Below, piece after piece: positions 19,800-60,700 of a stretch of DNA of 64,000 bases (positions are counted from its first letter, which is position 1; each line of letters opens with the position of its first letter). Source of the stretch: Paramecium tetraurelia (Eukaryota; Ciliophora; Oligohymenophorea; Peniculida; Parameciidae); the NCBI RefSeq assembly GCF_000165425.1, contig NW_001799644.1:253215-317214 (forward strand), read 5' to 3'. The notes under the pieces were generated by a model. It did no database searches. It saw only the letters and a program-made list of their open reading frames with translations, and was not told the DNA's origin. Position numbers and translations under genes: made by a program.

Positions 19800-21202
19800 A
19801 TGAATTAAAACTAAGTTCTCAGTCGTCTCTCTTGCAAGGATATCAATGATTATAGTTTTATAAAGATGTTGGGCACAGGATCATATAGTGAAGTCTTTTA
19901 GGGCAAAAACAAAACAAACGGAGAAGAAACTGCCATCAAAGTGATTGATAAGGTATTTTTAGCAAAGGTGATATAAATATATGATATTTGTAGCAAAATA
20001 AAAGTCATCTCATCTATTTGGAATCTAATGCTCTTACGTCAATAAATCATCCTGGTGTTATAAAATGTTACGCTACGTACGAGTCTAATACAAAGTTATA
20101 TCTCTCCCTTGAATTGATGAATTGGGGCACATTCAGGGATTTCATCAAAGGTATTGTATAACTCATTATTATAAGAAAGACAACTTACAACGAGGGAAAT
20201 TCAATTTTATGCTGCCTAATTGGTTGTCATTTTAGAGCAAGTTCACAAACGAGGAGTAGTTCATAGAGATGTCAAAGTATGACTATTAATGAACTTTAGC
20301 CCGAGAACCTGATGATGACACAGGACAAATTCATAAAGCTAATTGATTTCGGGACCATCCTTTTATTTAAAGGAAACGAGGTTATAAAGGAAGAATCCGA
20401 TATAAAATTTTGCAGAAAATCCAGTTTTTGTGGAACAGGAGAATACTTGTCTCCAGAATTACTTGATCAAAATTGTTGTGGTCCTCAATCAGATCTCTGG
20501 GCACTAGGTGTGATTATTTATGAATTGTTCACTGGAAAAACACCCTTTCAAAGTGACGTTGAATACATTATGTTCCAAAACATCTCAGACAAAGAACCAA
20601 ACTATGATTTAATCAAGGATCAGACTGCTGTGGATTTTATATAGATGCTCTTAACCAAAGATGCAAGCACAAGATTAACAGAAGCTATTGAAAATGATTG
20701 TGATTATTCAATCCTAAAGTAACATCCCTTCTTATCCAATGTGAACTTTGAAACTTTGTGGGTAGAACAAAAAGAAACACAGGAACAACCTAAATTCGAA
20801 AGGAAAAATGTATTATTCTTTATTTACAGTAGATTCTGAGAGGTAAAACAACCTTAGTTAATGATGGAGTATCTTTGATTCTAAGTGGTATTGTTGATAA
20901 ACATTCAGGAGTTCTAATGTTTGGATAATACACGCCTAGAACTATGCAACTAATTTAAAAACATTTTTCTTAAGAACTTTTTTATTATAATCCATATAAA
21001 AAGAAAAATGTAAAGCTTGATATTTATATTCTAGCATCAAATAGAATTGATCAAAGCTAAATGTAAATTAGGGAATGATGGTGAATTTGTAATTACCAGT
21101 AACAATAAAAAATATTTCTTTAAATAAAGAGAACATCCAGCAACTTAGTGGGTGGCCTTAATCAATAATGCAATCTCTTATAACAAATAATTTTAATAAT
21201 GA
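19800..21202 (+). CDS. PDK1-like protein kinase with C-terminal PH domain, 427 aa
   Basis: AGC kinase resembling 3-phosphoinositide-dependent kinase 1. Gly loop MLGTGSYSEVFQG, Lys in AIKVIDK, catalytic HRDVKPEN, LIDFGT and activation segment SFCGTGEYLSPELL (compare PDK1 SFVGTAQYVSPELL). After the kinase domain (about 25-300) the last 110 residues match a PH domain: RGKTTLVNDGVSLIL, YNPYKKKN and a final Trp helix TQWVALINNAI. Introns at 19968-19993, 20151-20175, 20277-20299, 20810-20829 and 21010-21034; 428 codons. It would phosphorylate the activation loops of other AGC kinases, the PKG upstream being an obvious candidate class. Confidence 0.88.
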
Positions 21203-27422: not shown

Positions 27423-29909
27423 ATGAAACGTCGCCCTCAAAGTGCAATCATAGCTAAGATCATTAAGGATAGATAAGAATCAGGGATGAATAAGTAAAAA
27501 TACAATTCTAGCAGAGTTCATAATTGATCTATATAAAAAAACAAACTCCATAATAGGTACCACCCAAGGAATATTTTGAGGATCAGGAACAAATGTACTT
27601 TGCGAATTTGTCATTGAAATAATAGTGTAATGAGTTAAAATTTGAGAATTCAAAACTCAAAGCCTCGGTATCTCAATTGAAAGTACCAATTATATTTATA
27701 GAATAGAAATAAATTATAAAGATAGAGAAGATCGATAAATATTAGGCAAATTGCGATCCTCTTGGAGTGATTTAAGGGGGTGAGGGGAGCATCGTACCAA
27801 TTTTGAAAGCTAAAGTAAAGGAATAGCGTAATTAAATTGAAGAATTATAAACTGATTTGCATTAACAGTATAAGTCTGTTAAATTGACAAAATTATCAGA
27901 GTTATAAAGAGAAATTGAGAATTAGTAAAATGAAATTATGAAGCTCAGATAAGTTATTCAATCTGCTCTCAATATTAATGATTAAGAGTAAACTATAATA
28001 TAATTTATAAAGTTTGGTGAATGATCCAAATATAATCGAAAAGCTCTCAAAATTCACAATCACAGTACACTAATAAGAGAATTCGATTTAATAGTTGATG
28101 AAGTAGAATGATAAATTAAAGCTGGAATATTAGGAAATGTCTAATGATAACGCTAAATTATTAGAAGAAATGAAGTAATTGAATTTTGAGAAAATTAATT
28201 ATAAAAAGCAATTGGATGAATAAACAATCACAGAGAGTGAAATGTATCAATAAAAGAAGAGAGAATTCTTGGAAATGAAATTAGCGTATACATTTTAATT
28301 AATATTACAGTGCTACTTTGAAGTAATTGGATACTTTAAAAGGGGAGTTGTCTTTGTATGAGAATAAGTCAAAATTGTTATAGAAGCACATCAAGGATTA
28401 AGAAAAAGAATTTAAATAGACAATAATGGAATTACAAAAGTAGAAATAAAACTTAGAAGAATAATGCAATAAAAAAGATATCATAATGTATTTTAAATAC
28501 TATTTTAGATAAGATTTAAATGATAGGATTAATATTTTGGATTTATTGAAGCAGAAGAACTCTCCTAAGCCATCTGAGTCTCCTCTCACTTTGCAACTCA
28601 AAAAGTCATTCTTTCCTCCCACAACTTACAGAGATTAAATGACATAATTTCCAGAAAAACAAAATTAGGATATCAATTAGGATGTTAATTGTAAGCCCAT
28701 TAATAAGAATAAATTGGAAAATCTGTTTTAGTAATTAAAATTCAAAATCATCTCTTAAAAATTAACAAAGGAAAGGATTCATTTTACATTTCATAACAAA
28801 GAATTCATATAATTAAGTGATGCAATTTAAGTCTTTATGAATGCACCCTATAACTTTTAAAAATCTGATTCAATAATATTGGGTAGATATCTAATTGGAG
28901 AGGATCAAGGACTCTCAAATTCAATATAATGGTAGGATACATAGGAAGTTAAAGAAATTGTTGAATAATTTTTCAACCACCCTAAGATAAAATCTTAATA
29001 TGTAAATAGATTTATTAATATAATAATAGTTAACATTTTAGACAATTTTGAAACAGAATTACTATTCAAGAGCAGTTAATGAGAAATTAATGTAATGTAA
29101 TATACCAAGTAAAATATACAATAGAGATGACTTCATCTTGCTATTGAAAAATAACTTTAAATTCACATACGAGCAAATAGATTATATGTTGATGATGAAC
29201 TATATATATTCAAACGAAGTAGAAAATATAGATATAAATGCTCTGAGATAATTCATAATACAAGAGTGTGATCTCTAAACAACACTTCATAATTTAACAT
29301 ATGTTTGTTAAGATTCCGTTAGATATGTACCAAAATAAATCAAAAAAGTTTCATATTCAGATGATGATGAATTTAATTATCCTATGGTTGAAAGCAAGAA
29401 TTTGAAATCTAACTAAAAATAGAAAGATGATTCAAAAATTGAAATTAAACCACCTGAATTATCAAATCAAGTACAAAATATCATTACAAGTGAACAATAC
29501 TTAACGTTTTCATGTATAATTTATGATATACTTAGAATTTAAAGTCAGTGATTAATAATAACTCAAAAGTTCAGAATCTAGAAAGCCAAGCAACCATAAT
29601 AATAACAATAGCGATATTTTCCAATATAGTCAATCATTACTACCCATGACCACTTTGAAAAGACCTTCGGATTTATAATAAATGTCATAAGATAACTCAA
29701 TCTAATTTAATATTACAAACTAATTTTAGTCTCCATAAACAAATAAGAAAAGGACGAATTAAATAACTGAATTCTATCCTGGGAAAGAGATTGCTGATTA
29801 AAGGAACATCCAATATAATGTTGATAACGATACATAAATTACTGACATCAATAAAAAGGAGGATGATTATTATGAAGAAATTTTGGAAGAATACATAGAA
29901 GAATTGTGA
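27423..29909 (+). CDS. Large coiled-coil protein, about 787 aa
   Basis: Start MKRRPQSAIIAKIIKDRQ. Residues about 50-430 are a near-continuous coiled coil rich in Gln, Lys, Glu and Leu; the middle (about 480-650) is a mixed globular region (FTFHNKEFIQLSDAIQVFM; FTYEQIDYMLMMNYIY), and the end is acidic. Introns at 27494-27516 (the least certain; a 41-nt alternative also fits), 27988-28012, 28286-28310, 29002-29029 and 29514-29535; with these the length is exactly 788 codons. No named domain. The look is that of a cytoskeletal or ciliary structural protein. Confidence 0.82.
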
Positions 29910-36980: not shown

Positions 36981-39900
36981 ATGAGAAAGAGATTTCATTT
37001 GAATAAATGGTACCATTCATTGTATTATTGCCTTTTGTTGATAAGTAAGAAAGAAAATAACGTGTTATAGTCTCTTGGTATAAGGTGTCCTACCTTTCAA
37101 TTATAAATTGGATCTTCTATTGTATATTCACATATTACTTGGGATACAAATGTAAAATTATATAATATTTTTTACTAGTTTTTAGTGAGGAGATACTTAA
37201 ATAGTTCAAGTTAATAATGAAATGCCACCTTATAATCTCATTGACAATAAGTGTATATTTTGTAATAGGATTGTTTCTTAGTTTATTAAATAGTGAAATC
37301 CAATTGGTAATGATAGAAAGGTTGAATTTCAATAGTGAAATATACATATTCGGATATGAAAGTGTATTTGCTTTGATGCTATGTTAATTACTATTGTATT
37401 TGGCAATGGTAGTATTTTTATTGTTTATCTATTGGAATGCTCAAATGCCATAATACGAGTACGTAGAACAGAATGAGAATTACACATTCCAATAGAGAAA
37501 GACTAGTTATTTGAGGTAATAGAGCATTATGGATAAAATAATAATGCTAATAATAGTTTAATTGTGTTTGAATGATGGATTGATTACTTTGTTCTTGGTT
37601 CTATGTATGTTGGTCTGGTTGGCAATTCACTTTCATATTTTGAATAAAAGAAGTCGATTTCGATATTGTCAAATAGTGATCAAGAGTATCATCGTATGTT
37701 CATTTGTGGCATTACTGATGTTGATTTTATCGGGATAATAGAACTATAGTTTCAGCACTTTAAATGGAACTCTGAACATTTATAGAATATTCAGGATATT
37801 TGGAATTTTGATTATGACTACCATCTTAATATTGAGTATGAGAGCATACCACTATTAGATGATAATAGGAGATGAAGAGGAAATCGAAGATTTAGAAAAG
37901 GAAATCTAGAAGGATATGAGATTGAAGATTTCATCATTAGAAATACTTTTAGGAGAGAATTACTTCGGAGTTATTATGATATTGAGTGTTTTTTGGATAT
38001 CAAAATAATTTAGCATATTGAGAGGATTAGTCTATTTAATTCTATTGGTTGGACAATTAAAGAGGAAACATTATAAAGCGACAAGACGTTGGTAGTGTGC
38101 AATTGCTATATTGTACTTAGCATTTGTCTAGTTTTTCCTATTGAAATTGTTTAATATCGCCCTAATTTAAGGTAAGTGCGTACTTTCAGTATTTGGGAGT
38201 GTATGAGCAACCACAATTCAATCCAAACGAATTATTTGCAATTTGGAATTACTTCTATAATAGATTCAATATTATTATGATTGACTTATTCTACATTCTA
38301 ATTGTCAGTTGGCTTGTGTATTCATAATAGACAATCGATGATAGAAGACGTTAAAAGAAGATCAATGATTTGGATAGTAAAGATCGTCCTAATAGAGAAT
38401 AGAAACAAAGTTGTTGGAGTAACTTCAAATCTAATTTGTCGAGTTTCAGTTATCAAATTTAGAAGAGTTTCTTGATTCACTTTGATGAAATAGTCATCAT
38501 ATATAGTTTGATTACTGCCTTAAGTCATGCAGACATATTTAGAGGAGTGTTTTTGATATTCTTTATACTTTATGCTTTTGCTTAACTAGAAAAAAGAAGG
38601 AAGTTTATGAGAAATCATTTAAGCATTGGTTACATTATATTATTCATATTATACTCTATGCAATTGATGTTTTTGGGATCATTACAAACACTCAATTTTA
38701 TATTTAAATTTGGTGGGTTAGATGAAGTTACTTAATAGTTCAAATTCTCTTTTTATTTTATCTACAAATACTATGATATAATTATTGGATGTGTCTTATT
38801 AACATTTTAAATTTAAGTAATCCAAAAAAGTGATCATTATTAAGAATATAAGAAGAAATTAAATGATTACAATCTCGATTATTTAAGGTAAATATTGCAA
38901 ACTAATGGATTGATTTTCTGTTAAATCATCGCTTTGATTGTGGCCTTTATTCCACCTGCAAACTTATTATCACTAATATTCATCTTCTTTTTCTAACTGT
39001 TTCTCTATTTGTATTATATACATGGACAACTAAATATCATTATGGACAGATTATATCAATATTGGCCACTCATGATCACTCTAACATTGATAATTCTGAT
39101 TGTCAGATACACATACACAATTAAATTCTTTTACTATTTTGTGGAATTGTACTTTTAATAACCCACTCTTTTAAGTGACTTTGGATTGGATCCAAATTTT
39201 AACACTCTCAAATTAGCAGGAACTGGAATTGCATTACTAGTCTTATGTGCATATAAGAGAGCCTATTTGGCACCATTAATAGAACAATAGAAATAGCAGA
39301 AATAAATCTACAAAAAAGGCACCCTTGCATATTACATTTATTGCATTCATATCAAACTCTGTGTGTACAGTGTTTATCACATACAAAAAGTGACTTTCAT
39401 GTTTTCATTCTTTATTTCTGTGTACTAGTAAAGTTACATAGGTTTCTTATTTGGCATTATGATTTTCTTAATCATGCTCAATGAAATGAATAACAATTGG
39501 TAAAACACATCCATACCATTTTTGGTTATTATATTTGTTCAGATTCTCATTTAATATATATTCCAAGCAGAACTACTAAGAAATGCTTAGGGTTAGGAAA
39601 CTATCTCCTGGATTGGAATTGAGAACTAATATCAGAACAAATATTGGTATTTATTGATTATGTTTCACCTATCAGAAATGCTTTAGGTTCTGAATGTAAT
39701 GTTTAAATAATAAGTAAATGATTATCTTTAATTATTCCTTATATCTACAGACAGAGAAATCAGTAACCTTAATTTACTTTAACAATTGTTACATTCATTA
39801 CAAGAAAATATCATATAAGAGTAGAATAGTGTTGAATCAGATGCCTCATAATAATAACAAATAGAATTGCAAGCACGAGATGAAAATTCACAGGAATCTA

Positions 39901-42900
39901 TTTTTTATGATGAATTGGATGAGTAAAATGAAAGATTTGCGAAGATTCAAAGTTACTACATTCTTAAGTCAAGTATGCAATAGGAATAGTTTTATTATAG
40001 AGTCTATCCCTTTTATAGAGCTCTTAAATTCCATTAATCAGTTGATAATCTCTTTACTTAAATTGGATTGGAAGTATGTTTATTTTTTATTGTTATTACT
40101 GCATATTATCAAAGGAATTTCTTTTCTGTTTTCTACATTGTGGTTGCTAGTGCATTTGCCAATAAATCACATTTATTAGATAGACATTAGAAATTAGGCA
40201 TATTTGGATAAGCATGGGGAGCATTGTGTATATTATAGATGTTGGAAGTCATAAGAAAATATGCTACATTGTAATGGACTCCTCCATCATGGGATGTTCG
40301 AAAACCATGGTGGTATTTTAGTTACTCTTGTGATCCTAGAGGAAAGGAGTCATTTAATAATGATGACCCTGATGATTCTACAAGTGATTTCATGAAATGC
40401 CAAACAGATTGGAATTATTGGCTGTCTTTATAAGGATATACTAATTGGGATTTGTGGATCAACTTCATTGCCTTACTCATCTCCTTGTGTTATTATCGAC
40501 ATTTCAAGACTGTTTAAAGAAGACAATAAGAATAGGAGATTCAAGATCACTTACATCCTGAGGTAGAATAGATTTAAGCTAATGTGATGGATAAAAATGA
40601 TTTCACTTATGAAGAAAACAGAACTAAAATTACAGATTTCATAAAGTTTTTCATCTTTTGTTATTTCTATAAATTCGCTTTGATTATATTTTTATTGATA
40701 GGAATGTCATCGGATATCCAATCTTATACAGAAGTGATCTCTTGTATCTATTTCTTTTTGGCAATCAATCTATTGTATATGAGTGAGAAATTAGAGAAGG
40801 ACAGAAATATAATTTGGGGTAAGTTGATATTATTTAATACAATTGTAATGATAGCAATGTCATTGTATTAAGCCCCTTTTATCAAATGTCCAATCATCTA
40901 TGAAAATGATAGGTATTATTATGATAATGTGGAATGTGTGCAGATTCAACTCAACAATCATTATTACAATAGTGATTTCTTTATCTTCTTATAAGATGAG
41001 TTCCAATTATTGGCAAAACAAACTAATGATGTATTTAAGAAGTATGAAGGGGTGTCCACTTTAGATGTGATTTACATGTTCTTATCTCATCTCTTAGGTT
41101 TGAATAAAACTTTAGAGTATTAAATTTATTGTTAACATTAGTTTCCGATTTGGTTTCTGTAAGGAGACTTTGATGGCTTTCTTCTTTTTGCTTGGTCTAC
41201 TACAAAGGAATATTTGGGCACATCCTTATATGAAATAATATGTTGATCCATATTTGTAGAGACAATAATAGAAATAGAAGATAAGTGCAATTATAATTGG
41301 TGGAGGGAATTCATTTAAAAAGAATTTGGGATTTCAAGTACGTGTAAGCATAAAAATAAGTGCATGAGAGTCTACAATAGAGAGTGTAAAACAGAGTTGA
41401 AAAATGGGATAATTTCTTTTAGTTTGATGATAATAAAAGTTTGAAAAAGAAGAGTTTCTTTTATTTAACTCCGAGGAGAGAAGAATAATTTTAGATCATC
41501 TAATTTACTGAAGAACGATCAGAGGACAATTAATAACATACAAGTTTTGATTCTGAAAAGTTCTAAGGATTCAAAGGGGAACCAAAGAAATTGATCAAGG
41601 CTGAAAGAATTACACAATAAAATAAAGCTCCAGTAATACATTTGTATGATGCCTGTTGTATTGTTAAAAATTCTATTAATAAAAAAGATTTGAGATTGAG
41701 ATTAAAGAAATTGATGTTATTGGAAGAAAAACGATAATTGGAGAAGGTCTATTTGAATGATAGAATAGGTTTAACAAATTATCACGTTGGAGTAATTGAT
41801 GAAATTGATAGAAAAATTATACAAGTTGACAATGAAATAGCTTAGTTATTTAAGGTGTAACAATTAAGAAAATCTATATCCATGAGAGACATTAAAATGA
41901 TACCATTTGAAGAGTACAAAGAGGATCGCAAGTCTTTTGAAATGCTTAGTGAAAGAGATGAAAGACTATAATAAATATCCGAAGAGGAAAGTGCTAAAGA
42001 TTTTAAGAAACCTGAAGAAGAGTAATCGGATGATGAAAATTCAATTGTATAACCATAGAAGTCATTCTCAGAAAAATTGAAAGATCTAATCATCTACATA
42101 CTCACTCATGACACTTACATTCGAGAATAAGAGTAATAATAAAATGAAATAGACAAAAAGAAATTGTCAGTTCTAATATTTGTTTTTGTTGCACATTACT
42201 TTTAAGTAGTTTGCGTATTATTGATGGTTGTTAATGCCTGTTTCAATGCTAATATAATCGCATTATTCTATCCATTTTCAGCCTTCCTTTATGGCTTATT
42301 AGAGAATCCCGTTCCCTCCAGAAGGTACTGGAACTTCCTACTAATCTATACGATAATAATAATTTCATTGAAATTCATATACTAAATGCCCATCTTCTGT
42401 GATTCACCACCATATAGATTTATAGGCTTTTCTTAAGAAGAAGCATGTGAACCTAGAGTAACTACTTAATAGGAGAAAATCACAAGAATAGACTATGTTA
42501 TTGGTATTCGAAAATATTAAGGAGCTGAAACATTCATGAATGCCATTTGGATTGAATTACTATTGTTTATTGCTTTTTTGATCTAGAGGTATTTGTTGCA
42601 ATCTTAGGGAATTTGGGATTACATGAAATTGTCATTAGATCAATATTTCATACCTTAATTCTAATAGCAAGTAGAAGATTAATTAAGTGAACATAAATAG
42701 GAATCTAGCTCTAAGGAATCTGAACAAGAAAGTGACGATTTCTCAGAAAATCATTAGGTTTAAGAACAATAGAAAGAACAATAGACAGTAATGATATCAA
42801 TCTAAGATACCTGTACATCAGTGTGGCAGTAAATAGTCAAGTACTATTATCGTTTATTCCCTCATGCTTTATCGACTATCTACATTCAAAGGAAATATGA

Positions 42901-44787
42901 TCCGGCAACTAAATAGATGATAATAAAAGATGGAGTAGTTTTGCCAGAATAGATTAAAGTGGGTAGAGATTTCTATGCACCAGGATTTATTATTTGTTTA
43001 ATTATTTTAGTGTACTTCCTATTGTTCTACCCAAATATCATAGCCAAACGAAGTTATGCTCACATTACTTAAGGGTAAAGTCAAAGATTTTCATCTGAAG
43101 TCATATTTGTACTGTTAGTTGTCATTGCTATCATAATTACTGATAGAGCACTATTTATTATGAGGAAAGTAACTAAGGATCCAAGAAATGATAAGTAAAA
43201 TTAGAGTGGAAATGATATTCAGAAATACACTTTGATGATTAAAGTAGCCATTCATTTCATTTTAATAATTGTTGTTCATTATTACTTCTTTTTTGTTATA
43301 CCTTAAAAGACTAATAAAAGTATGATTAATTTAATATATTTTAGGGTTCTAAGAATCATACTATCTAATATTTGCATATATTCTAGTTTGTATATATTTT
43401 ATGATTTCATCTGTGTAAATAAGATATGGATATCCTATATAGAAGTATACTTAGATATTTACTAATTCCCATAAACCAGCCAATTCAATGGCATTTAAGA
43501 TTTATAGAATGATTCCCTTTTTATATGAATTGAGAGTTATTATTGATTGGACATTTACTACTACAGCTTTGGATCTAATTTAATGGTTTAGACTTGAGGA
43601 TATCTTTGCTAATCTATACATCTGTTAAGCATATTAGGATTCTCGTATTGAAAATCATAAGTTGGGAGATCCAAGATCATCATCTGATAAATGTTTAAAT
43701 GGATGTCTCTATTCTATGTTCATTGTTTTTATTATCATCTTGCCAATTCTGATTTTTAGTACTTTAAATCCAGCTGTAGAAATCAATAATATCACAAATG
43801 GTAAATTTAGTATTAAGGCTGCTTTCTTTGGTTCAGATGATAAGTTATTCTTTACATTATTTTAAGTAAATGATTTAGAGTTATTGGATATACCGAATGA
43901 ACAATTTAAGAAAATATAAAAGATTTATGGCGAAATTGAAACATCATGGTAAGAGAGAATGTAAAAGGTTAGAATCAAGAGATTCAGTGATCTTGAATGG
44001 AATCTTCCAGAAAATTATAGAGATCAAATTAGAAATATGATAAAATCGTAATAATATTAAGTAGAAATCCAATGTGAGTGGGTATTCCAGAAGAGTGATA
44101 GTTAAGGAGGGGCAAAATCATTCACAGGACAGTCAATCGTATAAGCACCTGACACTTTTGTTAATAATTTTGGTAAGATCTTAGCTCCAAGAGCACCAGA
44201 TGCAGTATTTGATATAAGGGAATTAGTTCCTAAATTCTTATATGTTGGAGAGTCTGCTGAGACTCAAGCATTACGATTGGAACCAGTTAATATAAGAGAA
44301 GAAATCAGTTATTATTAAGATATTCGTTTGATCCACAAAAAGACAAGTGATTTTGTATTCTTTGAATTGGTGCCCAATGATGATTCAACTGATTTGAAGT
44401 AGATTGGAGGTATATTTTGATTAATATGTTCTAGCATCATCATAAAATAGAGTTGAATTCTTTGTATTGAATGAATTAGCATTTGGTAGTTTGATTGGAG
44501 CATTGTCCACAAATATGTCAATAATAAGTATATATGCAACATTTGTGTTGACAATCGGTAGGTTTTTGAGATTTGCATATGACAAAATAAGTACTAGAGT
44601 GATGTTTGAGGAGATGCCAGAAACATATGAATTATTTGATTTGTGTTAAAGCATTTACATAGCAAGAGTGGATGGAGATTTCATTAAGGAGGAAATATTT
44701 TATGAATTGCTGATTAGGATATATAGAAGTCCGGAGATACTATTTAAAATGACAGGTGCTTCAATTTACGATAGATAAAAGAAATGA
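36981..44787 (+). CDS. PIEZO: Piezo mechanosensitive cation channel, about 2,550 aa
   Basis: Very large polytopic protein, hydrophobic helices in repeated groups of about four from the N-terminus onward, as in the Piezo blade. The C-terminal fifth is diagnostic: MIPFLYELRVIIDWTFTTTA, then DIFANLYICQAY, an extracellular cap region after STLNPAVEINNIT, and the end IGRFLRFAYDKISTRVMFEE with ETYELFDLCQ and IRIYRSPEILFKMTG, matching the pore helix and C-terminal domain of animal Piezo (FEELP; YRSPE). Introns at 37045-37070, 38172-38199, 41117-41141, one near 41338-41368 (19 or 31 nt), 43320-43344 and 44410-44434; lengths come out as exact codons. Stretch-gated Ca2+/Na+ entry at the plasma membrane is the expected role. 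Confidence 0.95.
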
Positions 44788-44822: not shown

Positions 44823-47070
44823 ATGAGTTCTGGAAGTGAGAAGTTGGATTAGGTGCATCAACATCACTTGATGGCACCTTTGAAACCTTTCTTTCCTAAT
44901 CAGAATTTGGAAGATAAGAGGATCAGAACTGCAGCCAGAGAATTTCATGATTTTCTCAAGGAAGCAATAGATGAAGAACATTAACACCTATTGAATGCAG
45001 ATCAATCTATAATAAATGATGAGATAGTCAAGATGGCATTACCAGAAACTAAAGCTGAAATCAAAGAATTAATTTATGAATTAAAACGAATCCAAAATGA
45101 AGAAGAATAGCTGTTATTGCATTTTATAGGATAAGCCAAACAACTAGATAATAATGATAAAACGACTCCAAAAAGATTAAAGGATTATTTTGAAGGATTC
45201 TATTATGAAGTTATGATTAGAAGTAGTGACAAAAAGAAATTGTATGAAAAAGTCTTGTTGCGAGAAGAATAATTGTAAATATCACTTAAATATCAAGACA
45301 GAAGCATTTATCCTAATTGGAAATTAATTTGAATAAAATTGAAAAGAATTATGAATCTATCAAAAAGTGGCATGAAATTAGATCCCTAAGACAGACTGGG
45401 TATGATATTTCATCTATTTTAATAGGAGATTTAAAAACAGTACAACTAAAATATAGAAAATACAAATTCCAAATAATGTTTCAGTCTAAGCTTTGAGTTA
45501 GGATTTCCTCACAAAAAACGTAAATATACAACAATAAGAATAATCGGTATTGCATGAAGATGTCATGACCAAACCAAATGCAATCACTTCAGGATACAAT
45601 CTGGAGTATAAACCTATTCAATATAAGGAAATATAGTCAGATTTGAAAGAAATTGAAATCGATGAAACAAGTGTCTATGATTGGATTGTCGATATTGATT
45701 TAATCACTACTATTGCTAAAAATGGATGGAAAGTATATTTATCAAAGAAGTTTGCAGATGCACAAGTCAAATAAGAGTCTGAAATACCTAATTATGGATT
45801 TACTAAATAATAACACAAAGCCTAATGGGAAGGTGCCGCTGTTGCAGTTGTTGGTTTATATGATAAAGGAAAAACCTTCGTACTCAATAATCTTACATCT
45901 TCAAATTTACCTTCAGGGAAGAAGGTAACTACAAAAGGAGTCTCATTTAAGCATGTGAATGTTGATTCAGGTACATAATTGATACTTGTTGATACTGCAG
46001 GTAGTTATTCGCCTGTTAAAATTACAAATGAATTGAGTATTGTTGAAAAAGAAGCCACAGAGATGTTTATTACTGACTTAGTTTTTGAGATTTCAGATTA
46101 TTTCATTTGTGTAGTCAATGATTTCACAAGTCTTGATTAAAGATATTTGGATAGATTGAGTAGAAATTTATAGAACTCTCCAAATAAAACATTCAGAGAA
46201 ATTATTGTTATACACAATCTTAAAGAAGTAGAATCACCTGAGATCTTAGAACATGTTTGGAGTACTCAAGTTACTCAAATCTATTAGAATGGATCAATCT
46301 AAAGGACTAAGGTTGCATCAATTAATCCTATCAATCATCAATTGTAAGAAAAACATGTCTTATGGTTCAAAACTGAATTTACTAGACATGTTTGTTTAGT
46401 TAATGATGACTCATATCTAGGAATGTCAATTAACCCTTGGGTTTTTTCATTGTTGAGATATTGGTTAAAGGCAGTATTTGTTCCAGTTAATAGATAATTC
46501 TCAGTTGTAGATAGCATCATTCAATTTAGTAAGGTATGTATTTATTCACCAATTCATTTAGACTAAATTATCATCTTATTTCAGAACCATACTTACACTT
46601 CAGATTTAAGATACTGATGACTTCTTAGTTAAGACTATTGTTACTTAATAAGAAGTGTAGGATAGCAATGTCAGAATACCTTAAGTCTCTATTGATTCTA
46701 GTGGTTTGATAATGACCAGACCTGACAGTTTCTTGCCTAACACTGACATTATTGCTACTGATTAGTACATTATTTACATGGATGTGCCTGGATTAACCAA
46801 AAATGAAATCCTTGTGTATCGTTAAAATGTTGTAACAATTATTAAAGGAATACGTAAGAGACCTTATGATGTAATTCAATTTCTTTAAATTTTAAGTCTG
46901 AGAAACTAGAACGTAGTGAACGTAAGTATGGTGAGTTTGCTTTGTCATTCAAAATTCCAGAGATCTATGAAAGGAAATGGAGCACTTTTACGGTTGAAAA
47001 TGGAGTGCTGACAATTGTTTATGAAAAAGATAAAGATGATTAAATTGTCAGATAAAAGAAACAAGAGTGA
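44823..47070 (+). CDS. P-loop GTPase fused to an Hsp20/alpha-crystallin domain, 714 aa
   Basis: N-terminal 200 residues: helical, charged, with coiled coil. Near residue 325-335 AVAVVGLYDKGKTFVLNNLT is a Walker A/G1 loop; near 370 LILVDTAGSYSP is G3; EIIVIHNLKEVES near 440 may take the G4 place, though it lacks NKxD. From about 610 to the end there is an alpha-crystallin/CS-type sandwich: TDQYIIYMDVPGLTKNEILV, NVVTIIKGIRKRP, YGEFALSFKIPE and VENGVLTIVYEK, all small-heat-shock hallmarks. Introns at 45275-45297, 45400-45425, 46534-46561 and 46871-46896; 715 codons. I know no standard family with this order. A GTP-driven, chaperone-tipped machine is a guess. Confidence 0.85.
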
Positions 47071-48851: not shown

Positions 48852-51800
48852 TCATTTAATTTCAATATTCTTGTCCTCCTTCTACATATTTAATTATTCC
48901 TGCAATAACTAGCATTCTTCAACTAAGTGAAACTAAAACATATAATGGATAAACTTACAATTTATTGCTGGCATTTCTTATGTACATCTTCATCCTAAAT
49001 TTAACTAATGTTATCAAAAAATGAGTCATCTCCATATAAGATTTCCTGTCTTAATGAAAAATTCAAAATATTTAAACTATGTTGCTCTGACTGATCTTAA
49101 TCCAAATCATTAAAACTCATTCTCTGAGGCAAGTTTTATTTCATCTCCTATATTTATTAAACTAACTTCTTGCATTCCATCTCGTAATACATAGCTTTTT
49201 ACTAAACAAATAAATGAATACAATTACTTCTGATTTATCGACAATCTATTAATATTGTTATAAATTGAATTTTGTGTCATCAATGCATTTTTATTATTTT
49301 TCTGCTTACAATAACTTATTCTATATTTCCCCAATCTTCTTTCTATATTCATTAACATTTTGTCTTTGTTGCTCTGTCAATAAGGATTTCATAGATTGCA
49401 TAGTCAAATTAACTCTATTATGTAAGAATTCTTGCATAAGTCCATCCAATAATTACGAATAAGCCTCTATTGATTTTACATCCTATACATTATTGCTTTA
49501 CTTCTTCTATTCACTCTACTTCAACTCCTTAATTTTCATGAGAATATCACCTTCTCCTTCGAATTCATTTTGTATTTTCTTATATTTATCTCGAACATCA
49601 ATTAATCCAACTATTTAATTACTAATCACCTATATCTACTTTTCAACATCTTCTTCTTCATCCTCTGTCAATAATTCAGAATATAATTAAAATATCAATG
49701 TTGAATATTAAGATTACTTGTCTAATAATTCTTAAAATTCATTCTTTATTTAAGTTAATGCATTTATAACATTCTCCTCACTTACCTCCTAAATAGATAA
49801 CTCCTATTATAAAATCTAATTAATTTTGTTCTATTCCTAATTTTCAATTCGATTCTTCTCCCCAATCTCAAAAATCTTTAATCTATATTCATTCTCCCTC
49901 CTTCTCACTTCTTCTATTAAATCAGTATTCTCCTCTTGTAATTCACTCAATCTCATGACCAATTCCCTATTTTAATTTCCAAGTTCATTTATTTAACTCT
50001 CCAATTCCTACTTCTGATTCTCTGCTGTCAAATCACAATTTTATACTTAAATATTTTTAATTTCTAAGTCTTATTAAATTTTCTCAATATTTGTTCTCAT
50101 TTAATGAATCTTCAAATTCAATTATGACTTTTCTTCCATTATCATAGTCAGTTATTCGTTTAATTGCAATACTTATTACTAATATTATTCAATTAAAATG
50201 CCTTATTCTTATGTCTCTTTCTCTTTAGATAATAATTAATCATTCAATTATTGATAAGTTATTTATTGATTTTTTAGGGTTTCAACCAAATTTACATTCT
50301 TCTATTACAATTCCTCTGTTACTTTTTCCTTCTCAGCTTACATGGATTGTATTAACTGTTTTAATTCAGTTTATTCCTAATTTGATTAACTTAAATTAAT
50401 TAGTTTTTCATCAAATTCTTGCTCCAATTTCTCCTGTAACTTTTTTTGGTTACTTAATATTTAAATTTGATTTTAAATTTCTTAATCTCGATCTTTTAAT
50501 AGATTAAACATATTATCTATTTCTATTTATTTCAGTTTATTTTCATCATTTATGTTGTCAATAGCCTCCTATTTTTAATCCACTGAATTATGGAGATCTT
50601 TTATTTAATTTTCTTTCTTTTTTATATCTTCTTGCAATATTTCTATTTGTTTCAATTGTTCTGCATTTTTATTTTATAAATCCGAGAACTAATTTTTTAT
50701 TCCATTTAACTCATTATAATTGTTCTCTAATTGTTATTATTACTTTTTAACTAAATCTTATTATTGCAAAACCATTTCACTTAACTATAAATTCATTTAG
50801 CTTTCAAGATCTTTCACTTATATCTGTAGTTGAGCTATTAATTTGTTTTATTCTTCAATCTTCTAATTTAAGTTACTTATTGTTTTTGAATTTAATTCTG
50901 ATTATCCAAATATTTATTATTATAAATCTTAATTTTAATCTTTATAAAGACTCACTTCTTTGGAAATCAACATCAATTTTCCATTCAATTCTTCATTATC
51001 TAATAGTTTTTCATTTAATAACTTATCAATTTAATCAACTTCATTTTATTTTTATTTTAATTATTCTTTTAATTGTAATACTTCTTGTTCTTTTATTTAT
51101 TCTTCATTAATCATTTTAAGTTAGTCTTATTCTATTTAATTTCTCTTTTCATTTATTTATTTGAATTGATCATTTAATTTACCAATTTCAGATTTATAAT
51201 TAATTTCTATTGTTCTAATTTTTTCATCCTTCAATTAAAGTTATTCTTTCCATTTCTACTATTCATTTTAAGATTCCTATTAAAGTGTTTCTAACTATTG
51301 AATTAATTACCTATATAATTGTTGATTGGATGATGACTATGAGTAAATATCTTTATTTTTTTATTCTAATAAAGCTATTTTGTTTTCGGAAGTTGAGAGC
51401 TACTCAAGTAAACCCTACTTCTCTTCCTCTTTCTTCTAAATTTATTATTACATTTATTAATTAATTTGATTCAACAAATTTTCTTTTTATTATAGCTCTA
51501 AATCTAAGTTGTCCTAATTATTTTTGATCTAATTTTAATGCTATTCAATAACTTTTTCATATTATTCTTTTTATTATTAAAGTTAGTTCTACAAATCTTA
51601 GATTTAATAACTAATTTCTAGTAATTTAGATTCTTTTTCTTAATTGTTTTATTCTTAAACTTATTACAATTAATTTTGCATTTGTTATAATAATGTTTCA
51701 TGCTGTTCCTATTCATTTAATAACTAAGATTTCAAATTCTCTATAGTTTATTATTATTGCTAGATATTATTGTTAAGTTGTGTTGATTCCAATTTCAATT

Positions 51801-54599
51801 ATTCAAGTTGATTCTAAGTTGCACTTAAAGCTTGATATAATTATTCTGTTGACATATTCTTTTCCATTAACTTTTTATCAAGGACTTCAAGATTAGATTT
51901 TAATTAGTTTATTAGAGCTGTTTGATCTTATATTGTTTTATTCAATTCTGATTGGTTTTATTTGTTGATATTGTCCTATTGTTCTACGTATTTCTTATAT
52001 TTTGAGCATTCTTGTTATGCATCATGATATAATAATTATTAATTTTAGATCAATTCCTATTGATCAAGCACAACTTACTTTGTCTAATTCAATTCTAATG
52101 CTTACAATTCATACTAATCTTTTATTGATTGCATTGATTCACTATTATTTTATAATAATGTCTCATTCTCTAAATTGGCTCTCTATAATTATATTTATGA
52201 TTCATTTAATAGTTTCTTTTATTCACCAATAATCATTTAATTTTATTCATTTAGTCTTTCAAAAGATTATAATTTCTATTATAATATTTCTTATGATTAT
52301 TTGTGTTAATCTTGCAAAATCTTAACTTACTTTTAATGATCATTAGTTTATTTAAGTAATTCTTTTTTGAGTTTGGAGATACTTTCCTCTTAGTTTCTTC
52401 TTTCATTTTCAGTTTATTAATATTTCTCAGATAGATCTTTAATTTCATTCAATTAATTTTCAGATAATTTAATGAATTCGTTAATCTTTTGTTCATACTA
52501 TTCTTAATTCTTTTGGTAATCTTTTTTCATCAGTTTAATTGTATCTTAATCTTATTGCTGTTGAGAATAAAATTCAATATTTTATGATTAAATAGCTTTG
52601 TATTCTTCCTCCAATGCACTATGCTCAATTTCTTTATTTGAAATGATTTCTTACAATTTTTTAAGCTTCTCTTAAAATAATAGATTGTCTTTGTTAATTT
52701 TATCCTTTAGTATCTGTTCAGCTTCTGTTAGTAAGGATATCTAATTATCTGATTACTCTATTTGGCTGTGAAGATCAATAATTAATTAATGCAGTCTTGT
52801 AATTTCTGATTTATTCTATTCGATTATTGTTAATTGACTTTCTTCTTATTAAGATGATTTCAATTAGTTTTATAAAATAACTTAATTCAATCTTTCGATT
52901 TCTTTTTTTAATTAACTAATTTATGTTTGTTATTCATTGTATGTCAACTTGAGTTCTTATGATTTAGTGATGTCTTCTTTTAGTTTTTTAGTTTATTCAT
53001 TTAGATTTAAAATTTCCTATTGTTTATTTTATAATGCAGATACACTGATTTAGGTTTATCTGTTAAATTCATTCTATAGGCTTTCGCTCTTAAGCAATAA
53101 TTCCTTATTAGTGTTAGAAAGTTGATCATGAAGTTCTTTATAATTTTTGAGCTGCAATTCGTAATTTTAAAATTCTAACTTATATTTACTTTATATTTCT
53201 TCTATCTATTGCTTGGCTTTAATATGAGTGTTATTTAATTCTTTATTAATTATTAATATTTCCTCAGATTGGTTGAATAATTTATCATTAATGGCATCAA
53301 GTAACCCCTTAAAATCATTTTATTTATGGACTATCTTATTATTTTGGATGATCTCTTTCAATCTCATTACAAGAGTTTCTTGAAATTATTAAAACTCATA
53401 TTATTCAGATTCTCTTTAATTAATGATTTCCTAGATTTCACCTAATTATTTCAGCCATTTTGCTATGCTATCACCAATAACTCCTTAAAATTAATAAGCG
53501 TCTTGGAATTTTAATGCTGAGTGGTGACCAATCTTATTTAAATATTAATAATAAGATTTAATATTAGTTTCTAATTCAGATATAGCTTATCGAAGAGTAG
53601 AAATCTATTTTTAACATGTTAAATCAATTTCTAGAAACTTCTTCCATAAATCTTGATTATTCTCACAGATTTGAGCAGAATATTTGAGAATCTCCTCCTT
53701 TTATTCACACATATGCTTAAAGGATTCTTTGTAATAGAGATGAGTAGTTACTTAATGAATTTTGGATGAGAGTGCTCTTCTCATTTTCGATGTCTCCATT
53801 CAAACTATTGTTCTTTGATAGATTTTCAATAGCCTCATAATTCTTCTAATCTAGATCCTTAATTAAAGATAATAACAAGGGTTCATAGGTTTCTGGGAAA
53901 TTTTCTTTGTTTTTTGGATACGCCCCATTTAATATTTCATTCAATTCATTCTTTTTGGAGAAAGATGTTTTGGCACTTTTCTTACCTGATTTATACAATT
54001 CCAATTCCTTTTCACTCTTGTCTAATAACTAATACAATTTCTTGATGCACACTTTTCTACTCTAAAAATAATATTAATGTAATTTAATTACTTCTGCTTT
54101 CTTTTCGGCTTTCTGCAATTACATCTTTAATTATGCCAGATTGGATAGAGATTGTGAATTGATGTTATCACTGACTCTTTTTCTTAAGGTATCATTTTCT
54201 TATTTGATCTTTTCTAATTGCACAGCTAATGAATCAGCAGATTCTAAGACATCCTACTAATCGATGAAATAATTACCAATCTCATTTCCACTTATGTTCT
54301 AATTTACATATAGGTTCGAATGATCTTATCATCAGTGTTATTTTCAATTGCATTGTTTGCTGCTCTAATTAAATTAAAAATTAAGCCAGGTTCTCTGGGA
54401 GATTATAATTTTAACTAAGGTGAAAGAGGTAGCTTTTTTTAACTTCCTGGTGATGATATACTCATCAGATCGACTTTCTTTTATTCGCATTATTTAAATT
54501 TATATTTTTCTCTACTTTGACTCTATTATCTAGGTCTTTGTCCAATTTATAGAGAAGACCTTGCAGTTAATTCATAAACTGAAAGGAGAAGATCTGCAT
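48852..54599 (-). CDS. Giant coiled-coil protein, about 1,870 aa
   Basis: Almost the whole product is one uninterrupted coiled coil, extremely rich in Gln (mostly TAA), Glu, Lys, Leu and Asn, like ciliate basal-body, striated-rootlet or golgin proteins. The N-terminal about 150 residues are less regular, with SISSPGSQKKLPLSPQ and a helical block GLIFNLIRAANNAIENN. Introns supported: 54257-54276, 53727-53751, 49202-49227 and 48933-48958; a 30-nt in-frame one at 54062-54091 is likely. The start is uncertain: ATG at 54597-54599 with a 38-nt intron, or ATG at 54661-54663. The stop is TGA 48852-48854. The function is not readable; a structural scaffold is likely. Confidence 0.8.
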
Positions 54600-54758: not shown

Positions 54759-57700
54759 TCATTTGATGAACTATTAAAAGTACTTCTATTTCTCCTATCC
54801 CTATAATTCAGCCATGAATTCATCGAACTGTTCTACTTTCTATAATAAAGTTTCTTCATCTATTTCACTCTCCTATGATTTCTTATACATCTCCTAAATC
54901 TCCTAAGCCAATGTGCAATTCTTTATGAATTTCTCTAGTTTCTCTTAATATTTATTCCTATAAAAGGCATCCTTATTTTTATTATTGGCTTTTAAAGAAA
55001 TAGCAATAAACTTCAAAACCGTCTCTTTACAAGATAAAGTAGGATATTTGGGTTTCTAATATCCTAATTGAGCCAAAACTCTTATGATAATGTTCTTTAG
55101 ATGTAATTCCAAATAAGATGTGCAGTCACCTCTTTTCGCCACCTTCTTTGCAATATTCTACAATTTATATCTATATTTAATATACCTTGACAGCCTATAA
55201 TTCTCCCAATTACATTTTATCAGGTAATCTGGCATGCTTGTATCTCTAAGGATTCATTTCAAATAATTGCATGTTATGTGCATTAGCAAATATCAATTGT
55301 TAATTCTTATGGACAATCACTAAGTTACTTAGTCCCTTCACTAAATTGTTGTTAATCAATTCAACTGGACAATGACCTAAATGTATTAATGATTAGATAA
55401 TACCTTTATATTCTGGATATGGATCGAATTTATCTCCAACAGTTAGTTATCTTGGTATCTTATATTTTTCAATTGAATTATTGCAATAATGAGTGGGATT
55501 CTTGATAAAATCTTATTCAGTATCTTCACTTGATAAGAAGAATAATTAATCATCATAAAACAATAGATATGGACTTCTTAACTAACTGGCCATATAATTC
55601 TTTTTAGCTTTTATTAACACAGGACAATAATTGTACAATGGACTTAATTTTTGAATGATTTATTCTTCAGTCAAAGTCAATGAACTTACTCTTACTGGCT
55701 CCTATGTAATTAATGCTCTGGCCACCAAAGCTCGAGAATATAAACTCGCTTAGATGCACTTAGTACATAATGAGATCATTCCCCAACTGGATACTTATCC
55801 AACTTACAGATATCTCACATTATTGAAATGTGATTAATAATATGCTGCTAATAATGAAGTTTGATTGGCTTATAATCTTTAATGAACAACGTGATCAATA
55901 CCACCAAATTTTGGATTTAATTTACGAATTACATATTCATCATCCTTATCACAAACAAATACCACTGTTGGAATGATACCTACCTTTGATAATGCTAAAG
56001 CCTCATCAATGGTTCTTGGATATCCATCTAAAATGTAGCCTTAATTGTAAATATCAGCCAATTAAATTCTTTTTTGGATAATTTAAATAATGGATTAGGT
56101 ATCAACCTCCTTGCCTTCTTTCAATTAATTTTTGATGTTTACAGCCAATAAATCAGTTTAATTAGTAACAAATTCAGCCAGTAGATGAGATACTTTGACT
56201 CTTGCTAATTTAAGTTTTTCACTTAACAATCTAACAATCTCTGTTTTTCCTGACTTAACCTTTCCTAAAATGAATATAGTAGGTTTGATTTAAACATCAG
56301 AAGGAACTGTAGGCTTATAAAAGTATTTGTAAGGTCTTTAACATACTTATTCTCTTTATTCCTCATTATCAAGATAGTAAATTCTATTTCTATATAAAAC
56401 TGGATAATCTCTGCAATGAGGAACATTTTATAAGGTAATAGCATTTCTATTTCCATATTTAGATTATTTATGAGTGTATAATTTTTCATAGGTATCTAAC
56501 TTATTTAATTTATAATTTGTTGGATCTGGATATAAATTTAATTTTTAACATTATTCTTTTTCTAACATATTTTCTCTATATTCTCTGTCCATAACATTTT
56601 CTAATTAAGATGTAATTCTTTCTGTGACATTTTCAATATTAGTATCAGTACTGAGGATTACTGCATTGATTTTTAAATCTTCAAATTATTTTTATAATTC
56701 TTCAATTTTAGCCACATCTGCTTCATATTACAATTATAATTTATCTTTCTATTCTTTTATCATATCATCTAATTTAGGTGCTTCTGGATCTTCTTCTTCA
56801 CCTTGAGGTGCATCCAAAGATGGCAACTCTTCTGCTCCTTCTTCAATAGCCTTATTTCTTGCCTCCACTCTTTCTTAATACCTTTTCTATCTTAACTCTT
56901 CCATTTTCGTCTAATATTCATCTTCAATAACTTTCTAATTGAAATTTCGTTTAAAGAAGTTTTCTTATTCTACTTTTAATAAAATAACATATTCAGGTAA
57001 TTTTTTGGCTTCAACCAATAAATCAACAATTGGAGTTGAAACAATCTCTTCTGAAACATCAAAGAAATTAGCATTAATAATAACACCAGCACAATCTAAG
57101 ATTTTATTTAATACTTCAATTTCATGAGCTTTGCGATCGAAATCAGCAGGATCTTCAGTGATTTCAGCATCTGGAATTTCTTTACCCTCAGCATCTAATT
57201 CCTTAGGTTTAAATCCTTTCAAGTAATATCTATTCAATTATCTATTCTTTTTATTAATTTCTAAATTTTAAATTAAATTAGCTTTCAAATCTAAAACTGG
57301 TAACTTATATAATCTATTCAATATTTTCAATTGAGTTCGCAACCCACTTCCTCTTACACCAATAAACATAATTCTTGGTTGTGGTATTGTAATTTATGAT
57401 GGAACATACAATTAGACATTATCTTTGAATATTTATTATTCTTTCTCTCCATAAAATCTATATACCCTCCCTCTAACTAAAGCAATAATTTCTTCCTTTC
57501 CTGGTACTAACCAATTGGTTTTTTATAATGTAACAGGACAATAATTAGCATAATCACCATAAGGAATAGGTTCTTCCCCCTCTTATACATCTGCTGGTAC
57601 TCTCACTAGGCTTTCATCATCAGCTCGAATATAAAATGGGTCCAAAGCTAAACGTACTCTAGACCAGACTTCCTCTTTTGTTCCATCAATAGGTACTTCT

Positions 57701-60700
57701 TTAACATTCTCTTCTTAATAAGCTTCTTTTAACAATGCAGACAAAGCATTGACTTAAGTTAATTCTTATTCAATTAAAAGGTCAGGATTACGTTATAATA
57801 ATAATTATCCTGCTTCTTCTGATCTATCTTAAAGCATTAGAATCTTATCTATTTTAATTCCCCATAGATTCAATTAATCAATTTATTCCTATGTTTATGG
57901 ATACCCAATGATCACAATCCCTTTTGGTTTAGATGTTTCAGGGACTTTCAATTCATTATCCAATAATGGTATGATCTCTTTAGTTGGTACATCTTCAGGA
58001 GGTGGAGTGACTGGTTTAACATTCTCTTCCACAACCTCAACTACTTCTTCCTTCTTCTTCTTTGCTTATTACTTTTTAGCTTCCTTCTTTTTCTTCTCTT
58101 CATCCTCTTCAGGTGGTTGTTCTTCCTCTTCCTTCTTTGGTTCTCCCCATCCTGGAGGTTTCCTTTGTAATGGTATATTTAAATAATTTAACACCATAGG
58201 TAATACATCTTTAATAGCATTTCCTTTATAGAACTCTTTCCATTCAGCTTCTGTTAAATGAATATCATTTACTCTTGGATCAAATGTAGATGCTAAATGT
58301 TTGGTTCTTTCTTGTTAAGCCTAAACCTTCTTTCTCACAATATCTTCAACATCTACTAATGTCCAGCCATAATACTCAGCTAATTAACTGGCTACAGTAT
58401 TCTTGCCTGAGCACTTAGGACCTTATACCGATACAATGTAAGTTTTAGGCAATTATGGAGGTTTACATAAATATTTTCTAGGATAATTGATGAATTTATT
58501 TTAATTTTCTTCATTATCAAACAAAAACACTCTGCCAGCATATTCACAAGCGAATTCTGCCTTGCCTGGAATAATCTTGTCTTTTAACACTAATTCAACT
58601 GCATCAACCTATTACCATTATGACCACATTCTGTAAACCTTTTCATCAGTTAAATTCAATCCTAACAAATCCTTTTCAGAACCACCCTCTAATTTAACAG
58701 CTAATGGTCTTAAGGGTTACCCTTTCAAAATTTAGGCAGATACACGATCAACTAATTATTAAGTTGTCAAACCAGCAGATTGGAGTGTAATAATATTTTG
58801 ATCTGGTAAGTGATCGTATAATGATAATAATTTCTATTATGATTTCTAAAAACTTTGAAGTGATTCAACTAAGAATTCTTAATCTAGAGGTCTATAAAAT
58901 AGATCCTTTTCTGGTATAATGGGTGGTTTTTCTTCGTCGTCTGGATTGTCTCCTTAATCATCTTCTTCATCTGGATCATTTGGATCTTTGTATTTTATTT
59001 TAGGCCTCTTCTATTCCTCTCTGTCAAATTATGAAGTTGCAACTAAATCATCTTGTTTTTCCATTATTCTAGCAGCAAAATGCAATACATCTTCGTCTGA
59101 TTATTCTAAATTAACAACATGTGTGAAATATCTACACCCTATTTTCGGTAATACCATTTTGTTTGATAGTATTGAATTCACCCAAAATTGATTCTCCAAA
59201 GGTAGATCTAATATATAACCTTTATTTTTAGGTAAATCTTATTATAGTTCAACATTAAACAACTATTCCAATTGTTCTTAATTCAATTCCCTTCCAAATT
59301 TCAATGAATCAATCACTTCTCTCCTCCAAAGGATTCAAAAATTCTTTTAGGATTCCCTTCTTCATCCATTTATGGATTATTTTCATTTTCTGCTACTTTT
59401 GCATAGATTCTTTGAATTCCCTTTTCCAAGTCCAAGTATTCTAGATCAAGTGATTTAGCCAATACCTTAGCAAATGTACTCCTACCACTTCTAGGTTTTC
59501 CAATCAAGAATATTTAAGGAGGTGCTTGATTTGCATATTCAATTACATCATCTTCATAAGGATTCTTACTATCAATTGGTAATTACCCTTTAGGCGATAT
59601 GAATTTACTCAAATATGATTAAAATGATGGTAATTAAACATTTGATTATTATTCTTAGATAATTTCTAAAGCAGACTCTAATTATTATTAATTTTTTGGT
59701 TAATTTAGATCACCCAAGAAAGTTCTTAGGATTGATGGAATGTTCTTTGGTTATCTTTTATCAGGATTGGATGATCTTGTAATATCAAAGGTTTATAATT
59801 AGGAAGTTAACAGCTATCTTTTTTTGCTGATACTATCTTTCTTTCCCATTTCTTGTTTACTTTACTTTTTTAATCAATTCTATAATCTTCTTCAGTAAAG
59901 AATTCACTTTTGATGTTTATTGTTAATTTTTCTTCTTCATAATTGCTTAATGGATACTAGGACCATTAAACATCTCTGGTGATTTATTTACACAACTTAT
60001 AATATTGTGAATGTAATCCATAAGAATCATCATTCTATTCTATGATAAATTATAATCCAATCTCTGGAACTAATTGACTATTAGGTAATGTTAACAAGAA
60101 TGTTTCAGTCACATTGCCAACCAATTTGATTTCCTTAGCAAAGGGATATTAAGCTGATGTAAAATGTTTGTATTCAGTTTGTTGACAACTATTATTTATC
60201 AAAGCATATATAATGCATTCGCAACTCATTCCAATAGGAATAATTTCATTGAGTGGTGCCAATCTATATTTGATTATTCTACTAGGAATGACATTTGCAC
60301 TCTACAATTATTCTTCATTATAGATGTACTATTCAGTATAATAGATTGGGAAGTAAGACTTTTTGGAATCACTTTTCAAACTCTATTCAATTTTATCTGC
60401 ATTATGTATTTTTACAAGTATATGATAATCTATGTCTTTCTTTGTGTCATCTATTGATCATTATATCACAATACCTTTCACATCTATCAATTATCGACGA
60501 TATATGCGAGCATGAATTGTTTTCAAAAGGTAAATTACAGAACTCAAATCTGGCTGAATAATTAGTTAAAACAACAATTAAGTTAATGCATCTACAAACA
60601 CTTGATAACTCGAGTATTCTGGCAAGTTGGGATCCACATCTGTCATCGATTCTAAATACTATTATGATAACTGTTTCAGACTTTCATCTGGCAAACATAT

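Follow-up and report, generated by a model that had tools for sequence, protein, structure and literature searches.

A GTPase domain and a C-terminal alpha-crystallin domain (ACD) are very likely encoded by one fused gene of the ciliate Paramecium tetraurelia, and their pairing in a single ciliate gene appears to be an unusual architecture. In our best reading, the predicted protein would act as a GTP switch or scaffold in which the ACD serves as a pairing or partner-binding head. We assign a probability of about 0.6 to this explanation as a whole, weighted towards the fused gene; the GTP-dependent scaffold mechanism taken by itself is put forward only tentatively. Small heat-shock proteins are described as nucleotide-independent holdases. 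If conserved, a natural fusion of the two domains would offer a ready system for asking whether such chaperones take nucleotide control and would add a partner domain to the ACD fold.

The gene was identified in a DNA stretch of 64,000 nucleotides, referred to as the window, to which all positions refer. Splicing of the segment 44823-47070 on the plus strand yields an open frame of 714 amino acids when translated with the ciliate code (table 6), in which TAA and TAG specify glutamine. The frame contains 32 such codons (23 TAA and 9 TAG), and its single TGA is the last codon, at 47068-47070. In the predicted protein, about 318 charged, partly helical residues are followed by the G domain, a linker and the C-terminal ACD (Table 1). 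The initial annotation had proposed one spliced frame with a GTPase ahead of an ACD, and this is borne out by the 714-residue frame with its four introns and by HSP20 and MMR_HSR1 matches above their cut-offs. The motifs quoted at that time are all present: GLYDKGKT at aa 328, LVDTAG at aa 372, HNLKE at aa 448, MDVPGL at aa 627 and VENGVLTIVYEK at aa 690.

Table 1. Predicted structure of the GTPase-ACD gene; positions are those of the window.
Feature	Position	Strand	Description
Exon 1	44823-45274	+	aa 1-150; opens the N-terminal region; charged and in part amphipathic-helical, without a Pfam family
Intron 1	45275-45297	+	23 nt, GTA...AAG; required for the open frame; end not TAG
Exon 2	45298-45399	+	continuation of the N-terminal region; coding score -0.08 per codon, best among the three plus frames
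Intron 2	45400-45425	+	26 nt, GTA...TAG; a GAG end at 45428 (+3 nt, frame kept) is preferred by the gene-finding script
Exon 3	45426-46533	+	aa 185-554; remainder of the N-terminal region and the entire GTPase domain
GTPase core	45826-46281	+	about aa 319-470; Pfam MMR_HSR1; Era and GBP5 matched weakly in the PDB
Intron 3	46534-46561	+	28 nt, GTA...TAG; joint where the GTPase exon meets the exons of the ACD
Exon 4	46562-46870	+	aa 555-657; linker, then first half of the ACD
Intron 4	46871-46896	+	26 nt, GTA...AAG, within the ACD; a 32-nt version ending in GAG also keeps the frame
Exon 5	46897-47070	+	second half of the ACD; tail lacking I-x-I; ends at the TGA

Splice signals and coding statistics indicate that the five exons probably belong to a single transcript. 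One gene at 44871-47070, with four introns and all five exons joined, was predicted by a crude gene-finding script whose training set was eight other open reading frames of the window, which ignored domains and whose penalties were set by hand. Its prediction differs from the structure in Table 1 at two points, the start being placed at Met17 (44871) and intron 2 being three bases longer. The script accepted only GT...AG introns of 18-39 nt, so that longer introns would escape it, and it also calls doubtful genes, such as one antisense to the GTPase-ACD gene (45618-46106). Coding scores are weak in exon 2 and in aa 470-554 (-0.12 per codon), both of which still score best in this frame among the three plus frames, and strong downstream of intron 4 (aa 658-714, +0.53 per codon).

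Introns 2 and 3 end in TAG and introns 1 and 4 in AAG. For comparison, 39 introns with a GTA start were chosen by eye, not blind, from the 57 predicted by the script outside the gene, and some of them may be false; they measure 20-31 nt, and 31 end in TAG, six in AAG, one in CAG and one in GAG. By this measure intron 3 is typical and introns 1 and 4 are of a minority kind. Predicted introns in the window are mostly 20-30 nt long, and those ending in AAG include 20151-20175, 27988-28012 and 53727-53751. Short introns, a low G+C content and in-frame TAA and TAG codons give the window the look of ciliate DNA and fit Paramecium. Among other boundaries tried for intron 3, 46538-46561, 46529-46561 and 46507-46529 led to a stop at 573, 570 and 604 amino acids, respectively, and 46534-46585 was rejected because, although it keeps the frame (706 amino acids), it does not end in AG. 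Alignments of the ACD with PDB and plasmid sequences cross the joint at intron 4 without a break.

Two adjacent genes would result if intron 3 were left unspliced: a GTPase gene ending at the TGA at 46615-46617 and a small heat-shock gene starting from the ATG at 46712. The unspliced GTPase frame does meet this TGA, and the ATG lies in frame ahead of the ACD (MTRPDSF, aa 605); however, several observations make this arrangement very improbable. The 50 codons after intron 3 contain no ATG, the first being that at 46712, and in the ACD frame this linker has a hexamer coding score of +0.09 per codon, compared with -0.42, -0.77, -0.30, -0.09 and -0.48 in the other five frames. In a leave-one-out calibration on the eight other open reading frames, with a null set free of intergenic DNA, this score was reached by 8 of 640 wrong-frame stretches of 150 nt and by 59 of 128 right-frame ones; it was matched or exceeded in 18% of 4072 untrained TGA-free segments, a set that includes real genes. 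The total coding score is +4.6 for the linker versus -10.7 for the unspliced end of the GTPase frame. The 94-nt gap between the two supposed genes (46618-46711) has a G+C content of 31%, and its 31 codons score +0.27 each in the ACD frame, while the five remaining frames give -0.80 to -0.03. The G+C content is 29% in 46562-46713, 6% in the 35 nt upstream of the gene and 13% in the 67 nt downstream of it, and ranges from 21 to 34% per 2-kb block across the window. The ordinary 28-nt GTA...TAG joint, the ATG-free linker coding in the right frame and the linking of the exons by the script thus argue against two separate genes. A decaying gene, in which the introns ending in AAG would be frameshifts of a pseudogene or assembly errors, is suggested by introns 1 and 4, which share this ending and each of which repairs a change of frame. 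Against such decay, which we consider scarcely probable, both introns start with GTA and have ordinary lengths of 23 and 26 nt, the same ending occurs in six of the 39 hand-picked introns of the window (some of which may be false), and the coding statistics past intron 4 are strong. The fused gene is the preferred structure.

The identity of the ACD is supported by the HSP20/alpha-crystallin family of Pfam, which matched the whole protein at aa 620-707 with an E-value of 1e-10 and a score of 42.1 bits (cut-off 20.8) and the ACD piece alone with 5.3e-12. The NCBIfam model Hsp18_Clos matched at 1.3e-8, under its cut-off. The GTPase was recognized in the whole protein as MMR_HSR1 (aa 324-431, E 2.7e-7, 31.1 bits with a cut-off of 21.9). 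With both scores above their cut-offs, objections from profile searches to either domain fail, and the earlier placement of the ACD in the last 100 or so residues and of the GTPase in the middle of the protein is upheld. No CS/p23 family appeared among the 10 Pfam rows obtained up to an E-value of 10 with the whole protein; this and the HSP20 match assign the ACD to the heat-shock type. In the PDB, the best matches of the ACD were to a bacterial-type protein, the low-molecular-weight heat shock protein 3gt6 (E 2.4e-7), and to plant proteins, namely the 18.1 protein (2.3e-4) and the 16.9B protein (7e-4). The NGVL (G-x-L) motif is retained, as VENGVLTIVYEK aligns with NGVLEI of the 3gt6 protein. 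The presumed beta6 stretch is present with a two-residue deletion relative to the same protein, and its retention makes ACD pairing possible. A C-terminal I-x-I is absent, as aa 696-714 contain no [IV]-x-[IVL]. This motif is not universal among small heat-shock proteins, but a tail that lacks it makes canonical small-heat-shock oligomers doubtful. The full-length ACD and the NGVL motif are shared with the HSP20 small heat-shock proteins (PF00011; 3gt6; wheat-type Hsp16.9, 1gme). Those proteins are small and stand alone, whereas the ciliate ACD, with no I-x-I behind it, ends a protein of 714 amino acids that carries a GTPase ahead of it.

A tblastn search of 72,556 plasmid records with the ACD gave matches in 1289, all but one of which covered at least 80% of the query, and the best E-value among the matches listed was 2e-6. 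The best 20 of the 1289 were each in one piece, and because each listed match is unbroken, they span the position of intron 4. In two of the 1289 records, the bacterial relative is a separate gene, of 495 and 510 bp respectively, and has a further Hsp20 gene as its neighbour.

The GTPase is, by its motifs and profile matches, of the TRAFAC type with GBP-like G1 and G2, and is placed in no named subfamily. When the protein was cut in three, MMR_HSR1 again exceeded its cut-off (6.6e-8, 33.1 bits). With the whole protein, FeoB_N (2.8e-4) and GBP (3.9e-4, 20.1 versus 21.1 bits) fell below their cut-offs, whereas the GBP profile rose above its own with the G domain alone (2.2e-5, 24.2 bits); the NCBIfam model small_GTP matched at 6e-4, under its cut-off. 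PDB matches of the G domain alone were weak (Era, E 0.0076; GBP5, E 0.11). With the GB1/RHD3 GTPases (GBP, PF02263; GBP5, 7ckf) the protein has in common the VGLYxxGK[ST] form of G1 and the TKG of G2, which reads TTKG here. In the GB1/RHD3 GTPases G3 is DxEG (DTEG) and G4 is the guanine-specifying RD. In the ciliate protein, by contrast, the Glu of DTEG is Ala (DTAG, aa 374) and RD is replaced by the KE of a G4-like NLKE (aa 449), which would be a conservative change. The arginine finger of the GBPs is the residue following GLY, a position occupied by D here, and a Pfam scan did not find the GBP helical-domain family in the protein. Era/MMR_HSR1 TRAFAC GTPases (PF01926; Era, 3iev) provide the best Pfam match of the G domain, and DTAGSYSP aligns with DTPGIYEP of Era. 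They have NKxD at G4, in contrast to NLKE in the ciliate protein, which also differs from them in its fused ACD; the KH domain, a feature of Era, gave no row in the Pfam scan of the whole protein. The G4 motif is thus non-canonical, as the initial annotation had stated, and together with the DTAG at G3 it keeps the GTPase outside the named subfamilies despite its GBP-like G1 and G2. The G domain likely binds a nucleotide, presumably GTP. Fast GTP hydrolysis is uncertain and the reaction may be slow, because D at the arginine-finger position and the change from DTEG to DTAG affect residues with catalytic roles. Single-sequence structure models of exon 3 (369 amino acids) and of the G domain (187 amino acids) had a mean pLDDT of 33.4 and 39.5, which is very low confidence.

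The N-terminal 318 residues searched alone matched no Pfam family, all rows having E-values of at least 0.17. They had been described earlier as helical. This holds for amphipathicity, as aa 70-170 have the strongest alpha-helical amphipathicity among the 11 segments tested (z 3.2 relative to shuffles). A coiled coil, by contrast, is not supported, since the 7-residue repeat in the same residues, equalled by 48 of 500 shuffles, is unconvincing.

In the mechanism we propose by analogy, GTP binding would alter the G domain or pair the G domains of two copies. GBP-, septin- and Era-type GTPases are models for such GTP-driven changes or pairing. Paired G domains would bring the ACDs together, the ACDs may themselves pair, and the joined ACDs would then hold partner or client proteins. 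The gene structure is drawn from sequence statistics and the domains from profiles; from these we infer GTP binding, pairing and the binding of partners or clients. A GTP scaffold in which the G domains pair and thereby present the ACDs in pairs is the most economical mechanism.

The interpretation given in the initial annotation, a nucleotide-regulated chaperone that might be an oligomeric machine, is partly supported, in that the domains, their order and their location in one gene are well supported. A GTPase cycle that makes the ACD bind unfolded clients and let them go, and thus a nucleotide-dependent small heat-shock protein, would agree with the HSP20 profile match, the NGVL motif and the presumed beta6 stretch, which but for its two-residue deletion is kept and would permit ACD pairing. 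Such a chaperone is nonetheless unlikely, as the tail lacks I-x-I, the GTPase and the long region before it occupy the place of the short N-terminal arm of small heat-shock proteins, and a G domain with D at the arginine-finger position and DTAG may hydrolyze GTP slowly. The bolder version, a nucleotide-controlled small heat-shock protein invented by ciliates, in which a divergent GBP/Era-like GTP cycle would assemble and release ACDs as a GTP-gated holdase or an aggregate scaffold, is rather improbable. The ACD might instead be an interaction or localization module only, by which the GTPase is carried to the cortex, a cilium or a membrane, with no chaperone activity. CS/p23-like folds can act in this way, and a single ACD devoid of I-x-I inside a large multidomain protein with a long charged N-terminal region would fit such a role. 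The match to HSP20 and the absence of CS/p23 from the 10 Pfam rows argue against it, and we regard this role as doubtful.

Relatives of the protein were sought in several collections. Scans of viral contigs gave 8, 14, 6, 34 and 134 pattern matches and those of prokaryotic genome contigs 127 and 22, among which tblastn confirmed no relative; a search of phages with the whole protein gave no match. The contig scans are insensitive, five of the seven having used single-sequence peptide patterns, and their negative results weigh little because the ACD query missed in 84,980 prokaryote species, whereas tblastn found the 1289 plasmid records. In the literature, as far as titles or the opening lines of abstracts convey, no GTPase-ACD fusion was found; this includes a study of HSP20 gene numbers in corals (PMC6214176) and one of Pfam counts in a fungus (PMC4835503), whose passages on these subjects mention no such fusion. 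An automatic annotation of the architecture may well exist in public protein databases, outside the reach of a literature search.

A gene for a Piezo mechanosensitive channel (about 38145-44787, +) ends 35 nt upstream of the start of the GTPase-ACD gene, and three of its frames match PF23188 (6.6e-30), PF24874 (2.2e-44) and PF12166 (5.1e-18). On the same strand, the crude script delimits two neighbouring genes at 3123-5599 and 5709-8543, which encode a protein kinase that carries a cyclic-nucleotide-binding domain and a cyclic-nucleotide phosphodiesterase. The minus strand carries an open frame of 1552 amino acids at 49144-53799, without a Pfam family at an E-value of 0.001, and a frame of 1402 amino acids at 55129-59334, in which aa 1022-1168 form an adenylate kinase domain.
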